Shown piece by piece: positions 2,973 to 30,311 of a DNA stretch of 32,913 bases (position 1 is its first letter; the number at the start of each line of letters is the position of its first letter). Source of the stretch: a virus; the IMG/VR virus record IMGVR_UViG_3300027861_000117, positions 1 through 32,913 of that record, one strand, 5' to 3'. A model generated the notes under the pieces. It was not told the origin of the DNA, made no database searches, and saw only the letters and a list, made by a program, of their open reading frames with translations. The translations under genes were made by a program, and so were the position numbers.

Positions 2973-3412
2973 TAGCGGCCTACTTTCCAAAGTAGCAGTC
3001 GACAGTCAGCATCAAGCGAGGGAACGCTCGTCCCGATTTCGATGGCGGCGAGTCGGAGGGTGAGAAGAGACGAGGAGTCGACAGAAAACTCAGCCGTCGC
3101 CGCGTCACAATTTCGCCCCTGGTACATATCTGTATTCCCGATCTCTCCGACAGCCGACCCGTCAAGATAAAATTTGAACTGGACGTTGTCGGTGGCAGTC
3201 GTGCGCGTGAAAGATGAATATGCTTGAGCTAAATAATGCCCGGCGCTCAAATTGATCTCGGTCGAGTTCGTGATCGCCGGGGAGCTCGCGTATGTGTCGT
3301 CAAGCAAGCTGACATTATACTCGCCGCCGATCGCAGTGATGTTATTCGACCAGTCAAAAAGCGCGAGCCTCAGAGTCTTTTGTATTGTGCCGCCCGGAGT
3401 CATATAACTCAT
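2972..3412 (-). CDS. Tail tip or receptor-binding small protein (C1q-like fold suspected)
   Basis: The 146-residue protein begins MSYMTPGG. It has the strand pattern INLSAGHYLAQAYSSFT, FKFYLDGSAVGEIG, SLLTLRLAAIEIG and a hydrophobic C-terminal strand (CRLLLWKVG), all suggestive of a C1q/TNF-like jelly roll that trimerises at fibre tips. It is the first gene after the repetitive fibre, and its ATG overlaps the fibre TGA as ATGA, so translation of the two is probably coupled. An ATG at 3424 is in frame, but the overlap at 3412 is the recurring style of this genome. It appears related to the gene at 2077-2586. Receptor binding is inferred from fold pattern and position. Confidence 0.68.
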   Translation of the reverse strand: MSYMTPGGTIQKTLRLALFDWSNNITAIGGEYNVSLLDDTYASSPAITNSTEINLSAGHYLAQAYSSFTRTTATDNVQFKFYLDGSAVGEIGNTDMYQGRNCDAATAEFSVDSSSLLTLRLAAIEIGTSVPSLDADCRLLLWKVGR

Positions 3413-6261
3413 ATCAAGATCCAATTGGCATTATCGCTCTGGAGCGTAATTGAATCATATTGAGCGCCGATTGAAAATGTCGTCTGCCCCGCGTGGTCGA
3501 TGTGCTCCGAGCCGTTGGGGTCGACTGTCACCGCTGCGCTCGTGAGTCTTTTGATTTGGAGCTTGAATCCCGATAGCCCAACGGCTGTTGGGAGGTTGAT
3601 GGTTCCCGCGCCGGTTGATGCGGTGTAGGTGCGCTCGAGCTCGCTCGCGCCGATCGCTCCGTCGGTCGTGCCGACGGTGTATGGGGTCGCTGTGATGTCG
3701 GTCACCGTCGGACGAGATCCGCCACCGCTTGCCGCCTCAGCGCCCCATGATGTCGAGGAGTGATCATATGTGAGGACATAATTATCGATGCCCGCGCCGG
3801 CTGTATACGCGACATCGGAGAGCGTCGACATCGGGAGGGTCGCGACCTGGGTGTCGACTCGGCCCGTCGTAAAGTATTGATTAGTTCCCTCGGCGATTGT
3901 CGTCGTCGTCAGGTCTTGGGAGAGTGATGTCAGGCCGACCGCTGAGAGCGACGTTGAGACCGCTTGACCCGAGCCATTGCCCAAGAAGATCTTGTCATTA
4001 TCAAGGTTCGGGGTCGCTGCTGATCGTCCCGCCCCGCCGACTTTAATGATACCCGCGCTCGCGTCCGCTCTGACAACCTTACCTATGTTCTGGATGAGGT
4101 TCGCTTCGGTCGTCGGCGCTGTGTTAGTGAGAGCTCCGGCGGTGGCCGATGATACATAAACAGTATCACCGACGCTTAGGCTCCATGTTGTCGTGTTGAC
4201 GTCGCTTAGGTTGCCGAGAGTTATGATCGTGACCTCGGCCTGATCGTTCGCGTTCGCATGAACTAGACCGAAGGCGGGCATCGTCAAGGCGCTGTTAGAC
4301 CGAGCGAGATCGGCGGTCGGTACAGATCCAGAGATCCCTTTGATGTAGACGACCTGACCCTTTGTCATTAGGCCGCCCGAGTCGTTCTTAGCTTTGAACC
4401 TGATCGCGCCGTTGATGTCGGTCCATGAAGTCAAGTATCGAAGTGACTCAGTACCGATCGTTCGCGTGAGGTCGGCGTCGGGCTCGATCGAGCCGGAGGT
4501 CTTGATGATCCCCGTCCCGTTCGGTGCGATGGTGATGTCTCCGTTTGAGACACTGACAATCGACTGACCGTTAACATCGAGCGAGCCGCCGAGCTGGGGC
4601 GTTGTGTCGTCGATGACGTCAACGACCACGACCCCGATCCGACCATTGACCGAGGTCACCGGGGCCGAGGTGAGGCCGGTCAACTGAGACCCATCGACGG
4701 CGGGGAGCTTTGCCGTTCCGTCGAGTTGGACGATCTTATTCGCCGTAGTCCCGACGTCGACATTGAGGGTCGAAGTTGCACCGGTCCCGCTTAGAGTCAG
4801 CGCCGTTCCATCGATGTTTAATGTCGAGTCATCGGCGTAGATGTTGACCGCGCCCGTCGCTGTGTTGACGCTCGTCACTGGAGCTGAGGGTAAGTTCGTC
4901 AACGCTGACCCGTCAACGGCGGGGAGCTTTGCAGTTCCGTCGAGTTGTACGATCTTATTGGCAGCCGTCCCGACGTCGACATTGAGGGTCGAAGTCGCGC
5001 CGGTCCCGGTTAGGACTAGAGCGGTCCCGTCGATGTTAAGCGTCGAGTCATCGGCGTAGATATTGACCGCGCCGGTTTGTGCGTTGACTGAACTCACCAA
5101 AGCCGAAGGGAGGTTTATCAGTTGAGACCCATCGACCGCCGGGAGCTTTGCAGTTCCGTCGAGTTGTACGATCTTATTGGCAGCCGTCCCGACGTCGACA
5201 TTGAGGGTCGAAGTCGCGCCGGTCCCGCTCAAGACTAGAGCCGTTCCGTCGATATTTAATGTAGTATCATCAGCGTAGATATTGACCGCGCCGGTCTGGC
5301 CGTTGACTGATGAGACGGCGCTGCCGCCGCCCGCCGCTTCAGCGCCCCAAGATGTTGAGGAGTGATCATAAGTCAGGACATAGTTATCAATGCCGGCGCC
5401 GGCTGTATAAGCGACATCCGAGAGCGTCGACATCGGGAGAAGCGCGACTTGGGTGTCGACTCGGCCCGTCGTAAAATAAAGGTTCGCCCCTTCGGCGATG
5501 TCGTCTGTGTCGAGGACGACCGCGCCCGTGGCTGTATTGACCGAGGTCACCGGCGCCGAGGGCAGATTCGTCAACTGTGACCCATCGACGGCGGGGAGCT
5601 TCGCCGTTCCATCGAGTTGTACGATCTTGTTTGCCGTGGTTCCGACGTCTACGTTTAACGTTGAGGTCGCGCCCGTCCCGCTTAGAGTCAACGCCGTTCC
5701 ATCGATATTCAATGTCGAGTCATCGGCGTAGATATTGACTGCGCCGGTGGCGCTATTGACCGAGCTCACCAAAGCCGAAGGGAGGTTTGTGAGGTTTGAC
5801 CCATCGACCGCCGGGAGCTTCGCAGTTCCGTCGAGCTGGACGATCTTATTCGCCGTCGTCCCGACGTCGACGTTGAGAGTTGAGGTCGCGCCGGTCCCGC
5901 TCAAGGTCAGAGCTGTCCCGTCAATGTTAAGAGTCGTATCGTCTGCGTAAATGTTGACTGCGCCCGTCGCCGTATTGACTGAAGTCACCAAAGCCGCTGG
6001 GAGGTTCGTCAATGCCGACCCGTCAACGGCGGGGAGCTTTGCCGTTCCGTCGAGCTGGACGATCTTATTTGCCGTGGTCCCGACGTCGACGTTGAGGGTC
6101 GAGGTCGCGCCCGTCCCGCTCAAGACTAGGGCTGTTCCGTCGATGTTAAGAGTCGTATCGTCCGCATAGATATTGACTGCGCCGGTCTGCCCGTTGACTG
6201 ATGAGACGGCTCCACCACCACCGCCGCCAGAGACAATCTGTCCTTTAAATTTAATACTCAT
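3409..6261 (-). CDS. Long repetitive tail fibre protein
   Basis: The protein has about 950 residues. After a short N-terminus ending in a poly-glycine hinge come six nearly identical 73-residue units (GAVNIYADDTTLNIDGTAL, then VDVGTTANKIVQLDGTAKLP, then DGSxLTNLP). They are interrupted after the third by a 78-residue block ending VLTYDHSSTSWGAEAA. A less repetitive shaft follows (TRTIGTESLRYLTSW, as in other phage fibres). A second copy of the TYDHSSTSWGAEAA block and a C-terminal domain (INLPTAVGLSGFKLQIKRL, then HIDHAGQTTFSI) end the protein. It probably forms a trimeric beta-rich fibre for host adsorption. ATGATG occurs at the start; AGGAG sits six bases before the second ATG, so 6261 is used instead of 6264. 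Repeat number may vary between strains. Confidence 0.87.
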   Translation of the reverse strand: MSIKFKGQIVSGGGGGGAVSSVNGQTGAVNIYADDTTLNIDGTALVLSGTGATSTLNVDVGTTANKIVQLDGTAKLPAVDGSALTNLPAALVTSVNTATGAVNIYADDTTLNIDGTALTLSGTGATSTLNVDVGTTANKIVQLDGTAKLPAVDGSNLTNLPSALVSSVNSATGAVNIYADDSTLNIDGTALTLSGTGATSTLNVDVGTTANKIVQLDGTAKLPAVDGSQLTNLPSAPVTSVNTATGAVVLDTDDIAEGANLYFTTGRVDTQVALLPMSTLSDVAYTAGAGIDNYVLTYDHSSTSWGAEAAGGGSAVSSVNGQTGAVNIYADDTTLNIDGTALVLSGTGATSTLNVDVGTAANKIVQLDGTAKLPAVDGSQLINLPSALVSSVNAQTGAVNIYADDSTLNIDGTALVLTGTGATSTLNVDVGTAANKIVQLDGTAKLPAVDGSALTNLPSAPVTSVNTATGAVNIYADDSTLNIDGTALTLSGTGATSTLNVDVGTTANKIVQLDGTAKLPAVDGSQLTGLTSAPVTSVNGRIGVVVVDVIDDTTPQLGGSLDVNGQSIVSVSNGDITIAPNGTGIIKTSGSIEPDADLTRTIGTESLRYLTSWTDINGAIRFKAKNDSGGLMTKGQVVYIKGISGSVPTADLARSNSALTMPAFGLVHANANDQAEVTIITLGNLSDVNTTTWSLSVGDTVYVSSATAGALTNTAPTTEANLIQNIGKVVRADASAGIIKVGGAGRSAATPNLDNDKIFLGNGSGQAVSTSLSAVGLTSLSQDLTTTTIAEGTNQYFTTGRVDTQVATLPMSTLSDVAYTAGAGIDNYVLTYDHSSTSWGAEAASGGGSRPTVTDITATPYTVGTTDGAIGASELERTYTASTGAGTINLPTAVGLSGFKLQIKRLTSAAVTVDPNGSEHIDHAGQTTFSIGAQYDSITLQSDNANWILI
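4636..6183 (-). repeat. Six 219-base repeats in the tail fibre gene
   Basis: Units 1-3 occupy about 5527-6183 and units 4-6 about 4636-5292. Each is 219 bases (73 codons), separated by a 234-base block at 5293-5526. The period is visible directly: the same GTATCG motif occurs at 5936 and 6155. Many differences between units are at third codon positions or are substitutions such as T/S or N/Q, so the protein repeat is kept while the DNA drifts. The 234-base block has a partial second copy near 3715-3910. Antisense open frames over this region are by-products of the repeat. Confidence 0.9.
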
Positions 6262-6270
6262 CATTGACTC

Positions 6271-13518: not shown

Positions 13519-15569
13519 TATCTCGCGCTCCTATATTGTCCGCGTCGAGGGGTCGACATCACCGACGCGACCCGATCGGCTAGAGCTTGCTCGGCCGCTT
13601 GTTTAGTGTCGTAAATGACCGCGCCTCCAAAGTTTATATTGAAGACCTGACCAGCCTCCTCGGCTCTCTCGCGATCTGGTCGAGGCGCCTCTTGAGGTGA
13701 TCCGCTCGGACTCGCCGAAGCACCACCACCACCACCGCCACCACCTAGGGCCATCGACGCTCCACCGGCGGCGAGGGATGCGCCGGCAAAGATCGCGGCC
13801 GACTTAAAGAAGCCGAGAGCGGCGGGGCTGCCAAACGCAAGAGCCGCGAACCCTTCGGCAGTCTTGCCGAGAGCCTGGACCGCGAATTGTTTGGAGAGGC
13901 TCATCAAGATCTGGGCCGTTGCCTCTTGGAAAGACTCGCCGAAGAAGAGCGCACCGATGGCGGCATCGGCGAAGCCCGCGCCGTAAGCCATCGTAAGCTC
14001 TCCGATCTTGGCGATCTGAGCGTCGAGGGCTTGACTCTGGATGTCAGTCTTCTCGATTGCATAGCGCCTCTCAAGTTCCTTGACCCTCTCCTCTTTCCCT
14101 TGAGCGAGGGCGATCTCTTTCTCATATTTTAGATGAAGAAGCTCCAGCTCTCTCGTCGTCTCGTCTGCGATCTGCTCGGCGTTGAATTGTCGCGTTGAGA
14201 ACTCGAAGTCTAGCTTCTCTTTTCCCCGAGCCTCCTTTTGACTCTCGGCCCTCTCATCGATTCGGCTCATCACCAGTTGGTGCTCAAGGTTAGCCTGCTC
14301 AGTCTTTCGAGCGTTATCCTTCGCTAGCTTGAGCTGGGTCGCATGGCGCTGTTCTGCGAGGGCGATGATCTGCCCATCTCCATCTTTGTTAAGTTGAATC
14401 TTTAGCTGCTCGATCTTGTCGAGCTCCATGATCTCTTGACGAGCCCTCGCCACCGTCGCCGCGTCCCGTTGCTTCTTCTCTTGGGCTCGCTTCTTGTGTC
14501 GCTCTCGGCGCCTGGCTTGATCGGCCTCTTCGAGCCTCTCAACATTCTTGATATGCTCGGCCCCGATCGCGGCGATCGTGTCGACGAGAAGGTCTTGGTC
14601 TTGGATCTCTTCGGCGTGGAGGTCGGTGACTCGCTTGACATAAGCGGCTTCCGCCAGTGCAATTTGCTTATCAAGCCCCTCATCCATTATTGCAATCCGC
14701 GACGCCTGGATGTCCCTACTCAGCCCTAGCTCTTGCTGCGCCCGCTTCTTTATAGAGTCAATGCTACGCTCAAGCATCTCCTCTTTCATTTCTTCAAACT
14801 TTTTAAAGTCTCTCGCCCCTTCTGCGAGCAAATGATTGCTCTCCTTCATAGCTACCGCGTGAGCCTCTTCAAGTTTTATAATTTGCTGCTTTGCTTTCTC
14901 GATTCGCGCGTATCCGCCTCGCTCCTTGACGGTCCCTCCAAAGATCAAATTATGGTTCCTTACGGCAGCTTGCGCCCGGTTTTCGCCTACTCTCTGCAAG
15001 CCCTGGGTATCAGCGATCATCACCTTTAGCCGTTTGATTTCCTTGACTTGCTCCACGCGCCGCTCTTTGGTGAGCTGGGCTGCCTCGATCTTGAGCTTTG
15101 CTTTCATAGACAAGTTGTGCAGTTCCATAATGTCTGCGTCATTCAGCTTCACCCCTGCCGCCGCGAGCTCCTCAACCGCGCCGGTGAGCTCACCGAGCGA
15201 GGCAAGATAAGCTTCGCCCGCTTGAGTGACGCCGTCGGTCTCGTCTCTATACTCTCGCCATGCCTGCACCAAACCATAAACTGCCGCAATGGCAATCCCG
15301 ATTGGCCCCGCAAGTGTAGCAAAGCTTATACCTCCCGCCTTAACCGAGCTGCCCAGCTCCATAAACGCCCCGACCGCGTCACCCGCCGCGCCTCCGACGG
15401 CGCCGAGGGCTTCATTAGCTTCCCCTCCAAAAGTCGAGACGGCGTCACCCATTGAAGTAAATGTCTCACCGACTGCGGCGCCGCTTTCAGTAAGACCCGC
15501 GAGTTCCTTCTCGGACTCTTGGACGCCGGTTAGTTCGACCTCGATCTCGACCTTTCCACCTTTAGCCAT
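13518..15569 (-). CDS. Tail tape measure protein
   Basis: The 683-residue protein sets tail length and is ejected with DNA. The start is MAKGGKVEIEVEL at 15569, because AAGGAGG lies six bases upstream; an in-frame ATG at 15596 lacks that. Residues 45-110 are small and hydrophobic (MELGSSVKAGGISFATLAGP, then IGIAIAAVYGLV), the centre (about 150-490) is a long charged coiled coil rich in E, K, R and A, and the C-terminal part has a hydrophobic alanine/glycine stretch ending in a poly-glycine run. It follows the frameshifted tail chaperones, as expected. At roughly 1.5 Angstrom per residue, a tail near 100 nm would be predicted. The segment around 14680-15060 has fewer GATC sites than its surroundings, which suggests mosaic exchange. 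Confidence 0.88.
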   Translation of the reverse strand: MAKGGKVEIEVELTGVQESEKELAGLTESGAAVGETFTSMGDAVSTFGGEANEALGAVGGAAGDAVGAFMELGSSVKAGGISFATLAGPIGIAIAAVYGLVQAWREYRDETDGVTQAGEAYLASLGELTGAVEELAAAGVKLNDADIMELHNLSMKAKLKIEAAQLTKERRVEQVKEIKRLKVMIADTQGLQRVGENRAQAAVRNHNLIFGGTVKERGGYARIEKAKQQIIKLEEAHAVAMKESNHLLAEGARDFKKFEEMKEEMLERSIDSIKKRAQQELGLSRDIQASRIAIMDEGLDKQIALAEAAYVKRVTDLHAEEIQDQDLLVDTIAAIGAEHIKNVERLEEADQARRRERHKKRAQEKKQRDAATVARARQEIMELDKIEQLKIQLNKDGDGQIIALAEQRHATQLKLAKDNARKTEQANLEHQLVMSRIDERAESQKEARGKEKLDFEFSTRQFNAEQIADETTRELELLHLKYEKEIALAQGKEERVKELERRYAIEKTDIQSQALDAQIAKIGELTMAYGAGFADAAIGALFFGESFQEATAQILMSLSKQFAVQALGKTAEGFAALAFGSPAALGFFKSAAIFAGASLAAGGASMALGGGGGGGGASASPSGSPQEAPRPDRERAEEAGQVFNINFGGAVIYDTKQAAEQALADRVASVMSTPRRGQYRSAR

Positions 15570-16496
15570 CACGAACCTCCTTGATTGATTGCTCACGCTG
15601 TCGATCGATCATCGCCTCGGTGTGAGCGTGAAGGGTGTCGATGGCGTCGATCATAGCACATGAGGGCGAGGGATAAACGTCGGAGATCTTAGACGTCCCT
15701 CGGCGGTGTCGGTGGTATGTCGTGATGATCGAGGCGAGTCTATTTATATCTGAGATCGGGCAATGTTTGATTTTATAATCGCCATAATCTAGACCGCAAT
15801 TCGGGGCGACTCGATAGCCTGGGACATAGCGAGAGCCATCGACATCGATCATCGATTGAGGGAGAGTCGACTTAAACGATCCGCCACAATTGCCCCGCGA
15901 TCGCCTCAAGCTCGGGCTGTCTTTGCATTGATCACAATCCCATGATCGGCCTCGACTGTTGGCTATCCAAACAGAAGAGGCGAGAGCTATTTTGGGCGCG
16001 GGCCTAGAAGGCTTGATCGCTGAATATGAATCACTAACTCGGAGATGACTTGTAATCTGTAGGAGTCGGGTCGGATATTGTCGATCGTTTCCCATGATGC
16101 TTCCTCTCCATCGATCGAGACTAAGCTCGACCTGATCATCTCAATGTAGACTCTTTGGATATAGCCCTGATACTCGCCGTAAGCTCGGCGCTCATCCTCT
16201 TCGAGCTCATGATGCCATCGAGCTTTTTCTTCTATCTCATCGGGCGATGATGCCCATAAGACGCGACCGAGCTCCGACCGCGTATAGGCGCCGGCCCTCA
16301 CCTCACCCTCTTCTCTCTCCCTTGAACTCAACGCTTTGAGCGTAAAGATCGTCGCGCCGTCATGCGCCTCAAGATCATCGAGCGAAGCTGATGACAAGTA
16401 GGCCGATCTCTGATCATCTGAGCAGATCACCGAGGGGTCACAAGTCGCGACGACATCAAGGGTCATCTCTGAAGAGGGTAAGAAGTTAAGCGCCAT
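15562..16496 (-). CDS. Tail assembly chaperone, frameshift fusion (GT-like)
   Basis: A -1 slip at 15990-15996 would join the 169-residue upstream chaperone to 142 residues from the next frame, giving a product of about 311 residues. The junction reads LGPRPK then IALASSVW. The added domain contains a cysteine cluster (WDCDQCKDSPSLRRSRGNCGG, then NCGLDYGDYKIKHCP) and a C-terminal helix near IDTLHAHTEAMIDRQ. In lambda, G and the frameshift product GT recruit tail tube and tape measure during assembly, and the position just before the tape measure fits that. The downstream frame has its own ATG at 16095, but no ribosome binding site supports separate translation. The cysteine pattern could bind a metal ion; this is inference. 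Confidence 0.78.
15949..15996 (-). promoter_or_regulatory. Programmed -1 ribosomal frameshift site with downstream hairpin
   Basis: On the minus strand, CCCAAAA (15990-15996) is read in the zero frame as C CCA AAA, the classic X XXY YYZ arrangement, and TAG follows directly. Eight bases later begins a hairpin: GCCTC (15977-15981) pairs with GAGGC (15949-15953), and inside it CTGTT (15970-15974) pairs with AACAG (15956-15960). GG and CC continue the inner stem around an ATAG loop. The downstream ORF lies exactly in the -1 frame. Spacer length and stem position are what ribosomal slippage needs. Confidence 0.82.
15987..16496 (-). CDS. Tail assembly chaperone (G-like)
   Basis: The product is 169 residues, soluble and acidic, starting MALNFLPSSEMTLDVV and ending LLGPRPK just before TAG. 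It is the first of the pair expected between the tail tube and the tape measure. Its last two codons are part of the slippery heptamer, so most ribosomes would stop at once and a minority would continue into the -1 frame. There is no membrane segment or enzyme motif. Sequence identity to lambda G is not visible; the assignment depends on synteny and the frameshift signal. Confidence 0.78.
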   Translation of the reverse strand: MALNFLPSSEMTLDVVATCDPSVICSDDQRSAYLSSASLDDLEAHDGATIFTLKALSSREREEGEVRAGAYTRSELGRVLWASSPDEIEEKARWHHELEEDERRAYGEYQGYIQRVYIEMIRSSLVSIDGEEASWETIDNIRPDSYRLQVISELVIHIQRSSLLGPRPK

Positions 16497-22685: not shown

Positions 22686-23297
22686 TGGACCTCCTTCGTT
22701 TAAAGTGACTCGGTCGATCTTGCTGTGAGCTTGCGCCGGCCGAGGGGTGAGGGTGATAGCTAATAGTTGAGCGTCTCCGACTTTAGAGCCGCCGTCGCGT
22801 GAGAAGATCTCGCCTTGAAGATACTCGGGCGAGCTCCAAAGAATCCCGCCCGCTTGTTCGACGACCTCAAGACCCCGCTCATTATAAGCGGGGACTGCGT
22901 AAAGCCCATCTTCTCGAAGATCGAGATCGACGATGAGACCGAGAGCCGACCCACTAGAGGGAGGCGCCGGGGGGCCACCATTGAAAGGGCTTGTCGAGTG
23001 TTGCCAGTCGATGATTACGGGGTCGACTTCTTGGCGCTCTTGATAAACTCTGAGGAGTTCCTCAAGTAGACCCCGATCGATCTCGTTCCCGATCGCTTCT
23101 CCGCTCATCCGAGATGAGACTTGACCCAAGGCCAAAGTCTTAAATGGTCGACCGACGGTGAGCCCTTCGGGGATGTCGTATTGAGTTGACGAGTCGAGCT
23201 GGATCGCCTCGCCGTATGCTCGAAGAGCTGTCGGCGTTGAGATCGTGATCTTCTTCTTTTTGATGATCCGGCTCTTGAGCCGTTTAGCCTTTTTCAA
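22056..23297 (-). CDS. Prohead protease and scaffold (Mu I-like)
   Basis: The 413-residue protein has an N-terminal protease-like domain: DPVIIDWQHSTSPFNGG (D and H as candidate catalytic residues), GLIVDLDLREDGLYAVP, then EQAGGILWSSPEYL and AQLLAITLTPRPA. This order matches Mu gpI-like prohead proteases that cleave the scaffold during head maturation. After about residue 200 come charged coiled-coil segments (DELRAALSAKDEMVKQLEDK and an acidic stretch EEVEEEEEEKEEVAV), typical of a scaffold. The portal gene overlaps its first bases by 14. An internal start inside this frame is listed separately. Confidence 0.82.
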   Translation of the reverse strand: MKKAKRLKSRIIKKKKITISTPTALRAYGEAIQLDSSTQYDIPEGLTVGRPFKTLALGQVSSRMSGEAIGNEIDRGLLEELLRVYQERQEVDPVIIDWQHSTSPFNGGPPAPPSSGSALGLIVDLDLREDGLYAVPAYNERGLEVVEQAGGILWSSPEYLQGEIFSRDGGSKVGDAQLLAITLTPRPAQAHSKIDRVTLNEGGPVDNLDSMNEDELRAALSAKDEMVKQLEDKIAELMADSEAQMTSEETAQADAPAVVEQAEEVEEEEEEKEEVAVKMSETLNAPILLSEIHKLREEVASLKADKETVQRREAVGQLLREGRITPSEEEAASQAWSQRNSSPVFWALFSSRSIGSSVPLEEIGHGASGEELNKKSLDQKVRALSEEKSITYSQALTQFREQNPDSYRAVYGG

Positions 23298-24699
23298 TCT
23301 GTCGCCTCCTCTCGATCAAAGCCTCGGCGAGACTCATCGCGCCGCCCTTCGATGATGATGTCCTCTCGATGGTCGAGCGTTGAGCGTCTTCGGGTAGATC
23401 ACCCGCCCCGAGCCTCTCTCTGATCGCTCGCTCCAGCTCATTATCTGCGGTCAATAATCCCGCTTGAACTAGAGGGGCGAGCATCCCGAGGGACTCGGCG
23501 AGGTCATCAGTATCGAGGCCGGTATGAGTTAGCCTAGGCAGTTTGGAGGGATCGACGGCGCCATAGTTCCAACGGATCAAGCGCCCTATTGTCCCGCCTC
23601 CTCTTCGACCTGGACCGCTGACCTGGGCGGCTACTATATCGCATAGATTAATCGCGGCTCTTCTGAACATCGAGAGGTGAATCTCGCCGACTGACCGTGA
23701 GCCGGTGTCACTTATTCCGAGGTTCGCGAATTGGGCGAGGAAGGCTTGAGAGATCTGATTATCACACTCTTTGATTATGTCGAGCGGGCCTTGAGAGTAG
23801 AGGTGAGGTGTCGTCGAGTAGGTGTCGAACTTGATCGCGGGGTTCTCAACCAAGTAGCTTTGCTCTGTCGAGATGAACGCTTGAGCTTGAGCCTCGGCCT
23901 CATCGATCATCGAGTCGATGTCGCCATCGGTGAGGCCTTGCTGTTCCGCGACTGATCGGTCGACGGTGATCTTTGGAGTCGGGATCGCCCAACGATCAAG
24001 GCCGACGCACATCAGATTAGATACTCTCTGTTTAGTACGCCACCACCACCAGACAGGTCGAAGCATACCCACGCCCTCGAAGTTCGAACCTGTCCGGTTC
24101 AAGGTCAAGAGGATAAGCTTATTCGAGGGGATCGGTCGAGGTTGTTTGGTAACGCCGACAGTATTTTGGACGACGCCATCGAGGTGCTGACCGTCTCGGC
24201 TTAACCATTGAGAGTGAGCCGAGGGCTCTCGATCCGCGTATAGATCGAGCCATACCTTGACCTTGCCCTCGCTATCGGGGCCGACTCTATATGTCTCCTC
24301 GGCGTAGCGATAGCCTAGAGGTACAAACTCCATGAGGTAGGTGAGCTGCTCTTCAAACGAGCTCGACATCTGCCCCGCCCATCCGTCGAGACCGTAAGCC
24401 TCGTTTGCATATCGAGCGTACTCATCGGCGATGGGGTCATTTTCAACCCCAGGCTTGAAGCGCCAAGTCGCGCTTAATAAAGTTTGTCTCAACATATGCC
24501 AAGATCGGCGGACGACTGGGTCAGTCCTCAGCATCTCCTCGGCTTCGTTGACCCAATTCAAGCCCGTCAATTTTGGATTCTGCTCGACGCCCGAGATCAC
24601 CCCGCCCGATAACTGCGTCCCCGTTATACCCCGAACCCCAAAGCGAGGATACCGCGCTTTGAGGTGCTTTGGCGCTCGCTCTTCGGGCTTATAGTTCAT
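23284..24699 (-). CDS. Portal protein (DUF935/Mu gp29-like)
   Basis: The 471-residue protein begins MNYKPEERAPKH, and its early segment LNWVNEAEEMLRTDPVVRRS followed by MLRQTLLSATWRFKPGVE is the pattern of DUF935-type portals. Portals form the dodecameric ring through which DNA is packaged. Further signals include EEQLTYLMEFVPLGYRYAEE, IKECDNQISQAFLAQFANLG and a C-terminal variable tail. It is the first gene of the leftward late operon, with a promoter candidate upstream. No strong ribosome site is seen (GTGAG only), and the gene overlaps the next one by 14 bases. DUF935 portals occur in Mu-like phages, linking this head module to Mu. Confidence 0.83.
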   Translation of the reverse strand: MNYKPEERAPKHLKARYPRFGVRGITGTQLSGGVISGVEQNPKLTGLNWVNEAEEMLRTDPVVRRSWHMLRQTLLSATWRFKPGVENDPIADEYARYANEAYGLDGWAGQMSSSFEEQLTYLMEFVPLGYRYAEETYRVGPDSEGKVKVWLDLYADREPSAHSQWLSRDGQHLDGVVQNTVGVTKQPRPIPSNKLILLTLNRTGSNFEGVGMLRPVWWWWRTKQRVSNLMCVGLDRWAIPTPKITVDRSVAEQQGLTDGDIDSMIDEAEAQAQAFISTEQSYLVENPAIKFDTYSTTPHLYSQGPLDIIKECDNQISQAFLAQFANLGISDTGSRSVGEIHLSMFRRAAINLCDIVAAQVSGPGRRGGGTIGRLIRWNYGAVDPSKLPRLTHTGLDTDDLAESLGMLAPLVQAGLLTADNELERAIRERLGAGDLPEDAQRSTIERTSSSKGGAMSLAEALIERRRQIEKG

Positions 24700-24795: not shown

Positions 24796-24833
24796 TAACG
24801 TACCCTCTCTATATAATATGCCAAGGAGTGATC

Positions 24834-25163
24834 ATGGACTACGCGAATATATTGACCGAGATCGCCCCGATCTTGGCGACCGCCGGCGGTCTGCTCTGGA
24901 GCTTCTCGAAGAAGGTGACTCGAATCGAGGCGCAGCTCGCCGCGCTTCAGCACCAGCTCGAAGACATGAAGAACCACATCGAGGGGAACCGACAAGGCCG
25001 GATCGAGGTCTTCGGCGTTATCAATAATCTCCTCAAAGTAAAAGATAATGAGCTATCTGAGAGGCTCGCGAGGGTCGAGACCATCATCGAGAAGGGGATC
25101 GATAAAGATACGATCAGGCGACTCGCGACGATCGAGGCCGAGCTCGGGCAGATCACAAAGTAA
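24834..25163 (+). CDS. Membrane-anchored coiled-coil protein, partner gene of the cyclase
   Basis: The 109-residue protein starts MDYANILTEIAPILATAGGL. ATG at 24834 is chosen because AAGGAG lies five bases upstream (24823-24828); the in-frame GTG at 24828 overlaps that site. Residues 5-27 (NILTEIAPILATAGGLLWSFS) include a hydrophobic helix, and the remainder is a charged heptad-rich coiled coil (VTRIEAQLAALQHQLEDMK, then LSERLARVETIIEKGIDK). Its stop is directly followed by the cyclase ATG (TAAATG), so the pair is probably translationally coupled. It could sense or localise the cyclase, act as an effector, or resemble holin-type accessory proteins. No known nucleotide-binding domain is visible. 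Confidence 0.72.
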   Translation: MDYANILTEIAPILATAGGLLWSFSKKVTRIEAQLAALQHQLEDMKNHIEGNRQGRIEVFGVINNLLKVKDNELSERLARVETIIEKGIDKDTIRRLATIEAELGQITK

Positions 25164-25949
25164 ATGGAGCGTCAATTCGCCATCCTCGTCATCATCGACA
25201 TCGTCGAGTCGACCAAGTTCATCGAGACCGTCGGAGACGTCAAGGCGGCTCAAGCTATGCGTCTTTATGATCGGATCTTTAGGGGGCTCTTGATTAAATG
25301 GTCTGGCGTCGAGATCGACAAGACCGACGGCGCCCTCTTGATCTTCGAGACGATGAGAGAGGCTCTTCAATATGTCGTTGAATATCATAAGCTCGTCGAG
25401 CATCATCTCGGCCTCAAGAGTCGAGTCGGGATCCATGCCGGTCATGTCATGATGTCGACGAATCACGCGCACTTTGTGAGTCGAGGAGCCAAACCCGTCG
25501 AGGTCGAGGGAGTTCAAAAGCATATCGCGGCGCGGATCATGAGCCTCGCCGGACCAGGTCAAACCCTCTTGTCGAAGAGGGCGGGCGAGTACGCCTCTTC
25601 GGTTCGAGCGGGTCTCATGATCAGAGACATCGGGCGATGGAGGCTTAAAGGGGTACGCGATCCGATTCAAATCTATGTAGTCTCATGGGATCAAAGTAGA
25701 ATGAAGCCGCCAAAAGAGACATCTAAAGTCAAGCTCATCAAGCCTCCAAAGCTCACGCCCGAGGAGAGGCGCCGTCGCTTCTTTTGGCGATGGGTCGCGC
25801 CTTATCTTGTGTTGATATTGGGTCGGGAGTACCTGATGATCTTGGCATTGTTCGAACAAGCGGGACTCATCCCATATCTTTATCTCGATGTCATGTCGCG
25901 AGGGGTGAGCGCAATCGTATCATTTATCCATGGGCTCTTTTATTTTTAA
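25164..25949 (+). CDS. Class III nucleotidyl cyclase domain with C-terminal membrane tail
   Basis: The 261-residue protein has a class III adenylyl/guanylyl cyclase-type domain at about residues 5-175. IIDIVESTKF gives the first metal aspartate (D12), IDKTDGALLIFE the second (D55), then RVGIHAGHV (87-95), RGAKPVEVEGVQKH and IAARIMSLAGPGQTLLS (121-137), and GRWRLKGVRDPIQIYVV. The transition-state arginine is present (R124), but the usual asparagine position is histidine (H120), a variation I recall in other bacterial cyclase domains. The product may be cAMP, cGMP or a pyrimidine cyclic nucleotide; sequence alone does not decide. After a basic linker (ERRRRFFWRW) residues 211-261 are hydrophobic, suggesting the domain is held at the inner face of the membrane. 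It ends in a 30-base overlap with a convergent gene. Confidence 0.82.
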   Translation: MERQFAILVIIDIVESTKFIETVGDVKAAQAMRLYDRIFRGLLIKWSGVEIDKTDGALLIFETMREALQYVVEYHKLVEHHLGLKSRVGIHAGHVMMSTNHAHFVSRGAKPVEVEGVQKHIAARIMSLAGPGQTLLSKRAGEYASSVRAGLMIRDIGRWRLKGVRDPIQIYVVSWDQSRMKPPKETSKVKLIKPPKLTPEERRRRFFWRWVAPYLVLILGREYLMILALFEQAGLIPYLYLDVMSRGVSAIVSFIHGLFYF

Positions 25950-26180: not shown

Positions 26181-27548
26181 TCAAAACGAATCCTTTCGGC
26201 CACCGCCGACTTTAACTTTTCGGCTCTTCGGCGTTCGGCTGCTTCCCGCCGTTCGCTCGATGTCGGTGTCGCTCCAGTAATGATAAATACAATCGTATCG
26301 GAGAGCGTCGAGGGGATCCTCTCGCCCGTCCTTCTTCGGCTTCTCTTGTTTGTCCCAAGCGTAAGACATAAGCGCCCGCCTGATCGAGTTGCCCTTGACT
26401 CTCTCGCCTCGATCCCAGACCTCCCGCGTCACTCGGTATCTGCCGCGATGGAATGCGCGCTTTAACTTTTGAACGCCGTTGAGAATGTCGGTCATGATTG
26501 GGTCGGTCGTCCATCGAAGAGGCATACCAATGCCGCCTTGGTCAGGGTGACGCTTGATCATACGGAAGGCTGATCGACCTGTATGATCTGACCTCGCGGC
26601 GCCCGCCTTGTCAGCGACTCCGGCGTCTAGCCAGATCCGACTCGATGGCGCTTGGGTCTGGAGCGATCGTGGCCAAGCGACAGCCAAGATCATTTGGGCG
26701 AGCTGCTCGATCGTCACCTCATGGGGATTGAACTCTTGACAGATGACCGAGGCTTGGAGCTCCTCGTCGTAGGCGATGATCAAGACCGATGGTTTCCTGA
26801 ATCCCCAGTCGATGGCGATCCTCGCCTTCATCTCAGGTCGATACTCCCATCCATCGATGATGTGTGTCTCGGGGTTGAACTCGGAGTAGACGAGACCGCT
26901 GGGAGGCTTTGGTCGGTTCATGACCATGGCCTCGCGCTCATCGGGCGGGAGGAGTTTGGTTGCCTCAAACCATTCGGCGGCGAGGTTCGATTCGTTCACA
27001 TAGCTATTGAAGAGGAGCGGATCATACCCCGCGTCCTCGGCCATCTGACACCACCAAGCGTCGACGACGGGGAGACCGACTAGGACGAGTATCGGAGACG
27101 GCCCCGATCGAAGACGACCGAGAGCTTTATGAGCGACCTCGGCTTCGAGAGTCTGACACTCATCGATGAGGGCTACGCCCGAGGTTACGTTGAGGCCTTC
27201 TAGAGGGTTATGAGTCGCGTCTCTTGTACCCGGTCTAAAGTAAGATCTGCACCAGACAGTCGAGCCGTTATTCGTATCCGTCCACCTTCGCATAGTGTGA
27301 TTGTAAACCCACCCGATCGGCTCCAACCACTTCTCGATTTCGGGCATCAAGACGCTATTATATCGCCCGTTCGTATCGGTGACGAGTAGCGAGCTCGTCC
27401 CCGGTCGCGTCTTGGCGATAAACCAAAGAGCGAAGATGAGGCCCGAGGTCTTGCCCGATCCCCATCCACATCGAGCCGAGACGATCTTATCTTCTCGACG
27501 GATGCCGGTGATGATGTGGCGCTGGAGCTCGTTAAGGTTGAGAGTCAT
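26181..27548 (-). CDS. terL: Large terminase subunit
   Basis: The 455-residue motor protein packages DNA into the prohead. The ATPase part has RCGWGSGKTSG (26-36) as Walker A and VALIDECQ (125-132) as Walker B with the catalytic glutamate. The nuclease part shows ARIAIDWGF (D247), RIWLDAG (D308) and DPLDALRYD (411-419), the three acidic clusters of the RNase H-like fold. The C-terminal tail is basic (KSRKVKVGGGRKDSF) and may contact the portal. It follows the small terminase through several small genes and overlaps the preceding gene by 17 bases. GAAGG and GAGG lie close upstream. Confidence 0.94.
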   Translation of the reverse strand: MTLNLNELQRHIITGIRREDKIVSARCGWGSGKTSGLIFALWFIAKTRPGTSSLLVTDTNGRYNSVLMPEIEKWLEPIGWVYNHTMRRWTDTNNGSTVWCRSYFRPGTRDATHNPLEGLNVTSGVALIDECQTLEAEVAHKALGRLRSGPSPILVLVGLPVVDAWWCQMAEDAGYDPLLFNSYVNESNLAAEWFEATKLLPPDEREAMVMNRPKPPSGLVYSEFNPETHIIDGWEYRPEMKARIAIDWGFRKPSVLIIAYDEELQASVICQEFNPHEVTIEQLAQMILAVAWPRSLQTQAPSSRIWLDAGVADKAGAARSDHTGRSAFRMIKRHPDQGGIGMPLRWTTDPIMTDILNGVQKLKRAFHRGRYRVTREVWDRGERVKGNSIRRALMSYAWDKQEKPKKDGREDPLDALRYDCIYHYWSDTDIERTAGSSRTPKSRKVKVGGGRKDSF

Positions 27549-29263: not shown

Positions 29264-29604
29264 TGAGAGCCACCGCCGACCTGGCGGGGTCGAGCTGCGG
29301 TGATCCGTTGGCCTCGCTTCATCACGATAGACCACGCCGTTATCTTGATTCCGTTTTTCTCGTATTGATCCGAGACGAGCTCGCCTTCAACCCAAACATA
29401 GTCTCCCTTCTCCCAATTCTGGACGCGGTCGGCGGTGTATCTCCATGCCTTGACCCGGTGCCAGTCGGCGATCTTTCGATCTTTAGATATGCGATCGGTG
29501 GCGACGCTGAACTCGGCGAGCTTGTTCCCATGGATGTCTTTGATCTCGGCATCGGAACCGACGCGCCCCATGATCGTGATCGTGTTTAGTGTGTCCTCGC
29601 TCAT
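29257..29604 (-). CDS. ssb: Single-stranded DNA-binding protein
   Basis: The 115-residue OB-fold protein reads NTITIMGRVGSDAEIKDIHG, KLAEFSVATDR, WHRVKAWRYTADRVQNWEKG, DYVWVEGELVSDQYEKNG and ends GGGSQW. These match SSB: GRV near the N-terminus, the W-RV-AW segment, the KGD-V-VEG strand. The start is MSEDTLN at 29604, which has GGGAGAGGG about six bases upstream and overlaps the previous gene as ATGA. The C-terminus lacks the usual acidic DDDIPF tail, so it may not recruit host SSB partners in the usual way. It should protect strands in replication and RecT-mediated annealing. Confidence 0.87.
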   Translation of the reverse strand: MSEDTLNTITIMGRVGSDAEIKDIHGNKLAEFSVATDRISKDRKIADWHRVKAWRYTADRVQNWEKGDYVWVEGELVSDQYEKNGIKITAWSIVMKRGQRITAARPRQVGGGSQW

Positions 29605-30281
29605 GTCGCGCCCTCTCCCTTTGTCGAAAATAGAATATAGTTTTGTCTGTCGGTATGCTGGCGCCAAAGCTCTTTCGCCCCGATGCGCTCGTATCTGCGA
29701 TCAGACCCATAGACCCATCCGCAATTTACCAGCTCGGGCAAGACCGAGACCGCCGTCTTGCTTGAAACAAGAATAACCTCTCGCGTGATGTCGTTCTTTA
29801 AATTGACCGTATCTGATGAGAAGGCATAACCTTCTATGCACTTGCCCTCGATTTGGCTTCGCTCTATCCACTCTGCGCCATCGCTCCCCGGTGGGTACAT
29901 GTGGGTACCCTTACTCCGGTTTGCACACCTCATCTGCTCGATCCCCTCCTCGGTATGGCTTGGCATACATTGACCCGACGCCTTTATATTTAAGCACCCT
30001 TTGCGATGTATGAATGATGAGATATAGACCTCCTCTAGTCGCCGAAGCTGCGCCCGACTCCAAGCGTGAGCGATCACGCTTATGCTCCAGGCCAGGCTCG
30101 GGTCGGCCCGTCGAAGGTCTCGGATGCTAAGGCTTGACCCCTTATAGTTACACACCGTACGGGAGCAGCTGTTTGACCTGGTCGTGCAAGTATGGGCGCC
30201 GATGTAAAACAGGTCGCTCCCCTTGATCTCTATGTCTATCCTGTAAACGATATGATTCGTTATCCATTCGGCCTTCTTCAT
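29601..30281 (-). CDS. GIY-YIG-type homing endonuclease-like protein
   Basis: The 226-residue protein shows a GIY-YIG-like arrangement: IVYRIDIEIK and DLFYIGAHT (YIG), CNYKGSSLSIRDLRRADPS (Y and R candidates), a glutamate helix (LRRLEEVYISSF), GCLNIKASGQ (N), and TEEGIEQMRCANRSKG, similar to NUMOD-type DNA-binding modules. Such enzymes nick or cut DNA and may be mobile. AAGGG lies six bases before the second ATG of an ATGATG start, so 30281 is used instead of 30284. GATC density is about 1.5 per 256 bases, near random, unlike the rest of the genome, which suggests recent arrival. It overlaps SSB by ATGA. Confidence 0.72.
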   Translation of the reverse strand: MKKAEWITNHIVYRIDIEIKGSDLFYIGAHTCTTRSNSCSRTVCNYKGSSLSIRDLRRADPSLAWSISVIAHAWSRAQLRRLEEVYISSFIHRKGCLNIKASGQCMPSHTEEGIEQMRCANRSKGTHMYPPGSDGAEWIERSQIEGKCIEGYAFSSDTVNLKNDITREVILVSSKTAVSVLPELVNCGWVYGSDRRYERIGAKELWRQHTDRQNYILFSTKGEGAT

Positions 30282-30311
30282 CATTCACCCTTATGCTTTA
30301 GATAGATATTA

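Follow-up and report, generated by a model that had tools for sequence, protein, structure and literature searches.

The gene at positions 25164 to 25949 of the window, the 32,913-base stretch of an uncultured virus record analysed here, encodes a membrane-tailed class III nucleotidyl cyclase of 261 aa. It comes second in an obligate cassette of two genes, the first of which, F8, encodes a small membrane protein. The locus was read as a phage two-gene signalling cassette, forming a membrane cyclase complex that would act during lytic infection by overriding host physiology or defence, and this reading as a whole is given about an even chance of being right. The kind of enzyme is already known, but its widespread, phage-specific membrane form with obligate and exchangeable partners was not found in PHROGs, PADLOC or the open literature searched.

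The first-pass annotation had placed a cyclase on the plus strand with exactly these ends, and the domain that it proposed was borne out by profile searches, in which the N-terminal domain of NCBIfam TIGR04510 matched residues 5-189 of the protein (E=3.1e-41, profile positions 5-202) and the LipJ profile also matched (E=2.2e-15). In a search of PDB sequences, the top match was Rv1900c/LipJ (1ybt, E=3e-10). The AlphaFold model, for which 15 viral homologues served as alignment input, had a pLDDT of 84, and Foldseek recovered the cyclase fold with it, the closest structure being the cyclase domain of Rv1900c (1ybu, E=1.8e-14, target-normalised TM 0.93, rmsd 1.7 Å). PF00211, the Pfam profile suggested earlier for this check, reached only E=0.0023, below the Pfam cut-off, so a test based on it would miss the window cyclase; it was therefore discarded as the deciding test in favour of the more specific TIGR04510 profile and the fold. 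The secondary structure of the model, the Foldseek match to the Rv1900c domain and the HMM match delimited the cyclase homology domain to residues 1-175 (25164 to 25688). Thus, the identity of the protein as a class III cyclase is settled by homology and fold, and chance is excluded by the profile and fold matches together with the invariant residues and the low dN/dS (0.055) described below.

The suggested resemblance to cyclases linked to peptide modification was also confirmed, in that the matched domain is that of TIGR04510, although the match extends over about 200 of the 814 profile positions and its 141.8 bits are below the curated cut-off of 400 bits for full membership. The window protein ends after its membrane tail, without the remaining TIGR04510 architecture, and its neighbours are the portal, terminase and F8 genes instead of a peptide-modification neighbourhood.

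For the catalytic positions, 59 viral cyclases that are distinct at 95% identity were aligned with 81 bacterial relatives; D12, D52, D55, R87, K110, E113 and R124 were invariant. Both metal-binding aspartates and the transition-state arginine were found where they had been predicted. D12 is encoded at 25197 to 25199 and D52-K-T-D55 at 25317 to 25328, D55 being the second metal aspartate and D52 a base-specifying position according to the roles described for Ma1120 (PMC4215837), while the segment from 25491 to 25535 carries K110, E113 (the second base-specifying position), K119, H120 (the transition-state Asn position) and R124 (the transition-state Arg), all on the plus strand. The transition-state Asn position was the variable one, being occupied by Asn in 47 of the 59 viral sequences and by Pro in 70 of the 81 bacterial relatives; the window protein shares a His (His120) with Rv1900c, and some relatives have Ala, Ser or Val. 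As Ma1120 has Ala at this position and is active nevertheless (PMC4215837), His120 is no argument against activity.

The variability of this Asn, and a turn before D55 that has one residue fewer than that of Rv1900c, would be compatible with proteins that are non-catalytic decoys or structural membrane components, in which the cyclase fold serves for nucleotide binding or dimerisation only. However, the metal aspartates and the Arg are kept in 59/59 viral sequences, and the canonical Asn prevails in the viral proteins in contrast to the Pro of most bacterial TIGR04510-like relatives, so that a non-catalytic role appears highly improbable and the window cyclase is predicted to be an active enzyme.

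Regarding the base-reading positions, D52 and E113 aligned with K101 and D157, the base-reading residues of Ma1120 (PMC4215837), the exact register at D52 being an alignment-based assignment given the shorter turn between D52 and D55. The resulting D52/E113 pair is neither the known ATP pair (Lys/Asp) nor the GTP pair. As it matches no known pair, substrate prediction is unsafe; the D/E pair could specify an unusual product.

A Pro/Lys/Arg-rich basic linker (residues 176-205, 25689 to 25778) and a hydrophobic C-terminal tail (25794 to 25946) follow the domain, in agreement with the first-pass annotation. In the tail, the AlphaFold model and the hydrophobicity profile revealed a helix at residues 199-232 with a hydrophobic core at 211-229, and a further segment at 243-261. 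The tail is kept in the family, at least one hydrophobic segment being present after residue 170 in 58 of the 59 viral cyclases. When compared to relatives 97% identical, the cyclase and the portal both had a dN/dS of 0.055 and F8 had one of 0.069, and the median over the cyclase family was 0.087. Therefore, cyclase and F8 are both under strong purifying selection, on a par with the portal.

The first-pass annotation had overlooked the partner of the cyclase. F8 (24834 to 25163, plus strand) encodes a protein of 109 aa with an N-terminal hydrophobic segment followed by a coiled coil. The cyclase ATG comes immediately after the F8 stop codon, and a Shine-Dalgarno-like AAGGAG (24823 to 24828, plus strand) lies 5 nt upstream of the F8 ATG. 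No sigma-70 promoter was called before the cassette, where there was a lone TATAAT with no spaced -35 and too close to the start. The F8 genes found in scans with F8 only adjoined a cyclase. In the other large clade of cyclases the order is cyclase and then F2, usually with a short overlap, F2 being a protein of 145-178 aa that combines two TM segments with a coiled coil. In all 137 loci with enough flanking sequence F2 was found beside a cyclase (137/137, a redundant count in which many loci come from a scan with F2 only).

Among the 59 distinct cyclases the partner was F2 in 46 cases and F8 in 12; in the last case (L235), a divergent F8-like gene lies immediately upstream of the cyclase. Two loci departed from the pattern of their clades: L179 pairs F2 with a cyclase that falls inside the F8 clade (support 99), and in L219 F2 is upstream of the cyclase. 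This swap and this change of order show that the partners are exchangeable. It must be considered that the 59 cyclases share ancestry and are not 59 independent events; what counts as independent is the existence of two partner families, the swap in L179 and the changed order in L219. Membrane segments were detected in all the F2 proteins, in 11 of the 12 F8 proteins and in 58 of the 59 cyclases. Where structural genes were in view, F2 cassettes ran in the same direction as these and F8 cassettes in the opposite one. Homology between F2 and F8 was rejected (hhalign probability 4%). In L268 (4020-5264) the cyclase ORF is a 77-aa fragment followed by an intact F2, either a broken gene or a sequencing error.

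Strict specificity of F8 for the cyclase was refuted by F8-like genes of 87-99 aa without a cyclase in related phages (L066:2273-2545, L032:2861-3142, L012:1787-2068 and others). These lone genes lie antisense between dnaC-like and ssb genes, often followed by thyX-like and dCMP deaminase-like genes. Because F8-like proteins occur without a cyclase, F8 may have originated as a general membrane protein of phages, or its role may be a broader one.

The pairing of a cyclase with a membrane protein in a two-gene unit is also that of PycC-PycTM (PMC11224242), and the main rival to a takeover or counter-defence function is a Pycsar-like effector pair. Here the cyclase would respond to a trigger, such as a second phage or damage to the membrane, and its product would open or cluster F2 or F8, the collapse of the membrane serving to exclude competitors or to time cell death. 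The strict linkage of cyclase and partner, the partner exchange and the uniform two-TM nature of F2 all favour it, as does a weak match of 17 of 19 F2 members to SLATT_fungal (PF18142, best E 3.6e-5), a 2TM effector domain of nucleotide systems, for which reversed and pattern-shuffled F2 controls gave no match. Nevertheless, this match is under the Pfam cut-off (23.1 bits for the first F2 member against 26.5), and F8 had no SLATT match. No cyclic-nucleotide-binding domain was found in the F2 and F8 sequences, which after the TM part have a coiled coil and a short tail only; thus, an adjacent effector of the Pycsar type, with such a domain plus TM or TIR, was not found. The predicted structure of F2 was a low-confidence hairpin with a coiled coil (pLDDT 70, pTM 0.29). 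Furthermore, PADLOC had no convincing model for F2 or F8, and a PycC-type sequence was not found, the window cyclase matching no PADLOC model at E<=1, nor any PHROGs entry. As the carrier phages look mostly virulent (see below), defence of a lysogen is also unlikely. With these points taken together, a Pycsar-like pair seems rather unlikely.

Cyclases had been described as rare in small phage genomes, and this held for the isolate collection, about 50,000 phage records having yielded no clear relative. The two candidates from isolates, Mel-JY01 and MT838110, gave weak matches and were rejected, the second being an 892-aa cyclase-NB-ARC-type protein on DNA that looks bacterial; this record (L324, MT838110.1), from human faeces and labelled 'Bacteriophage sp.', looks like a bacterial fragment. 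Rarity did not hold for uncultured phages. When viral contigs were scanned with the viral alignment, 336 pattern matches were obtained, relatives being encoded on at least 303 uncultured viral contigs, and the best 80 matches were fetched. The complete viral cyclases among those fetched were compact (about 250-300 aa) and membrane-tailed, and carrier contigs ranged from 4 kb fragments to 376 kb.

The best 80 bacterial matches were proteins of 400-1650 aa, most of them of 850-1050 aa, with TPR, NB-ARC, kinase/WD40 or PEGA parts where tested; the one exception (L092) was on a phage-like contig within a MAG of unstated taxonomy. In the tree, the phage cyclases grouped in a single supported clade (SH-aLRT 95), which divides into two subclades and is separate from the multi-domain bacterial relatives. 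Therefore, a host origin, as had been suggested, stands as an ultimate bacterial-type ancestry, whereas a recent pick-up from a host is contradicted by the existence of a single phage-specific clade. In the open-access literature, subscription journals being outside the search, neither phage-encoded class III cyclases of the window type nor any mention of TIGR04510 was found.

The cassette lies between a divergent gene for a Mu-type portal (23284 to 24699, minus strand; PF06074, E=3.7e-24; phrog_113) and a convergent gene for the terminase large subunit (26181 to 27548, minus strand; phrog_5653, E=1e-7), in a window that also encodes head protease, tape-measure-like, SSB-like, DnaC-like and RecT-like proteins. 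In relatives with portals 75-97% identical the terminase-portal interval was variable; 24 of the 71 intervals covered (redundant loci) had the cyclase cassette, and the rest contained genes for N6/N4 or C5 DNA methyltransferases, an ECF-like sigma factor, T5orf172 or DUF3310, or nothing. From this content, the interval is a cargo slot, often occupied by possible anti-restriction or takeover genes. In L003 (5423-6742), and also in L002, the sister phage of the window, a gene for a 439-aa N6/N4 DNA methyltransferase that is absent from the window lies between cyclase and terminase.

Other features of the window were noted in passing. An ORF of 227 aa beside the SSB gene (29601-30284, minus strand) has an N-terminus that looks GIY-YIG-like by eye but matched no family, and is lacking in L002, where the dnaC-ssb gap is of 271 bases. 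A 951-aa protein (3409-6264, minus strand) made of repeated TGAVNIYADDTTLNIDGTALTLSGTGATSTLNVDVGTTANKIVQLDGTAKLPAVDGS units is probably a tail fibre. Just upstream of the tape-measure-like gene, two overlapping ORFs in different frames of the same strand (15562-16496, minus strand) are laid out like a frameshifted pair of tail assembly chaperones.

The carriers have portals of different families (PF06074 and PF04860), which implies that the cassette has moved horizontally. A tyrosine integrase was detected in only 2 of 30 cyclase-bearing viral records, and no cNMP-binding domain (PF00027) in any of them, with control genomes positive; many of these records are fragments, so the missing receptor and integrase are weak evidence. 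The carrier phages look mostly virulent, and a defence based on lysogeny was rejected as integrases are nearly absent (2/30). The evidence on the role of the cyclase thus leans to lytic infection over lysogenic defence.

In the preferred reading, the abutting genes would yield F8 and the cyclase together, and the two proteins would assemble at the inner membrane, where the C-terminal helix of the cyclase would hold the cytosolic class III domain. The cyclase would dimerise to form two shared active sites, in which D12 and D55 would bind metal and R124 would stabilise the transition state, and would convert a nucleoside triphosphate into a 3',5'-cyclic nucleotide, with F8 (F2 in the sister clade) putatively anchoring, dimerising or gating it in a physical complex. 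The cyclic nucleotide would then act on host receptors during lytic infection and override host regulation or a cyclic-nucleotide-based defence, to the probable benefit of the phage. The phages, mostly virulent in appearance, have no recognisable receptor of their own, which makes host receptors the most likely target. The same grounds favour host takeover or counter-defence, as does a slot otherwise filled with methyltransferases and other cargo.

A simpler form of takeover would have the cassette make cAMP or cGMP, turning a Crp-like host regulator to phage production, with the partner as an anchor only. The adenylyl cyclase nature of the nearest solved relative, the lack of a phage-encoded receptor in the 30 records and the strong constraint on the cassette in many phages are consistent with it. 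However, the base-specifying residues are unlike the adenylyl or guanylyl pair, and a plain anchor needs no two strictly linked partner families when the cyclase has a membrane tail of its own, which makes this version fairly improbable. At its broadest, the signalling-cassette reading would mean that virulent phages own a cyclic-nucleotide signalling system, with a membrane cyclase and exchangeable small membrane partners spread among unrelated phages, including those of >200 kb, and that they use it during infection to counter host defence or competing phages by way of a cyclic nucleotide with a new specificity (the D/E pair), as a phage-side counterpart of Pycsar; we put this forward only tentatively, as a rather doubtful extension.

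Phages destroy or soak up cyclic-nucleotide signals by means of Apyc1, Acb1 and sponges. If a widespread, constrained phage family with its own membrane partner serves to make such a signal, the picture of phages as signal destroyers would be reversed. A membrane-tied cyclase always paired with a small membrane protein suggests that these phages send chemical signals inside infected cells. As both genes are short, activity, product and partner binding are directly testable.

Among known systems, Panoptes (mCpol plus 2TM-beta) likewise pairs strictly a nucleotide-cyclising enzyme with a small two-TM protein, but mCpol is Cas10-related, makes c-di-AMP (PMC12657230) and is unrelated to the phage cyclase, and no beta domain is predicted in F2 or F8. 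Pycsar (PycC with PycTM or PycTIR) is another two-gene unit containing a class III-type cyclase, and its PycTM form has a membrane-protein partner; in contrast, the phage cassette has no PADLOC match, its partner has no recognisable cNMP-binding domain and it is carried by apparently virulent phages, not as a defence of the host. The class III adenylyl cyclase Rv1900c/LipJ of M. tuberculosis is the nearest solved structure (TM 0.93) and has the same His at the transition-state Asn position, although its cyclase domain is C-terminal to a lipase, its base-specifying residues are N/D and not D/E, and it has no membrane partner. Finally, the proteins with the TIGR04510 (mod_pep_cyc) N-terminal domain and the STAND/TPR- or TPR-fused bacterial relatives share with the phage cyclases the same invariant residues and the signatures E-I-D-K/R-T/S-D-G, G-A-K-x-x-E-x-E/D-G and AAR-x-MSL; compared to these multi-domain proteins of 400-1650 aa, mostly with Pro at the Asn position, the phage cyclases are proteins of 250-300 aa with a membrane tail, a clade of their own and an obligate partner.
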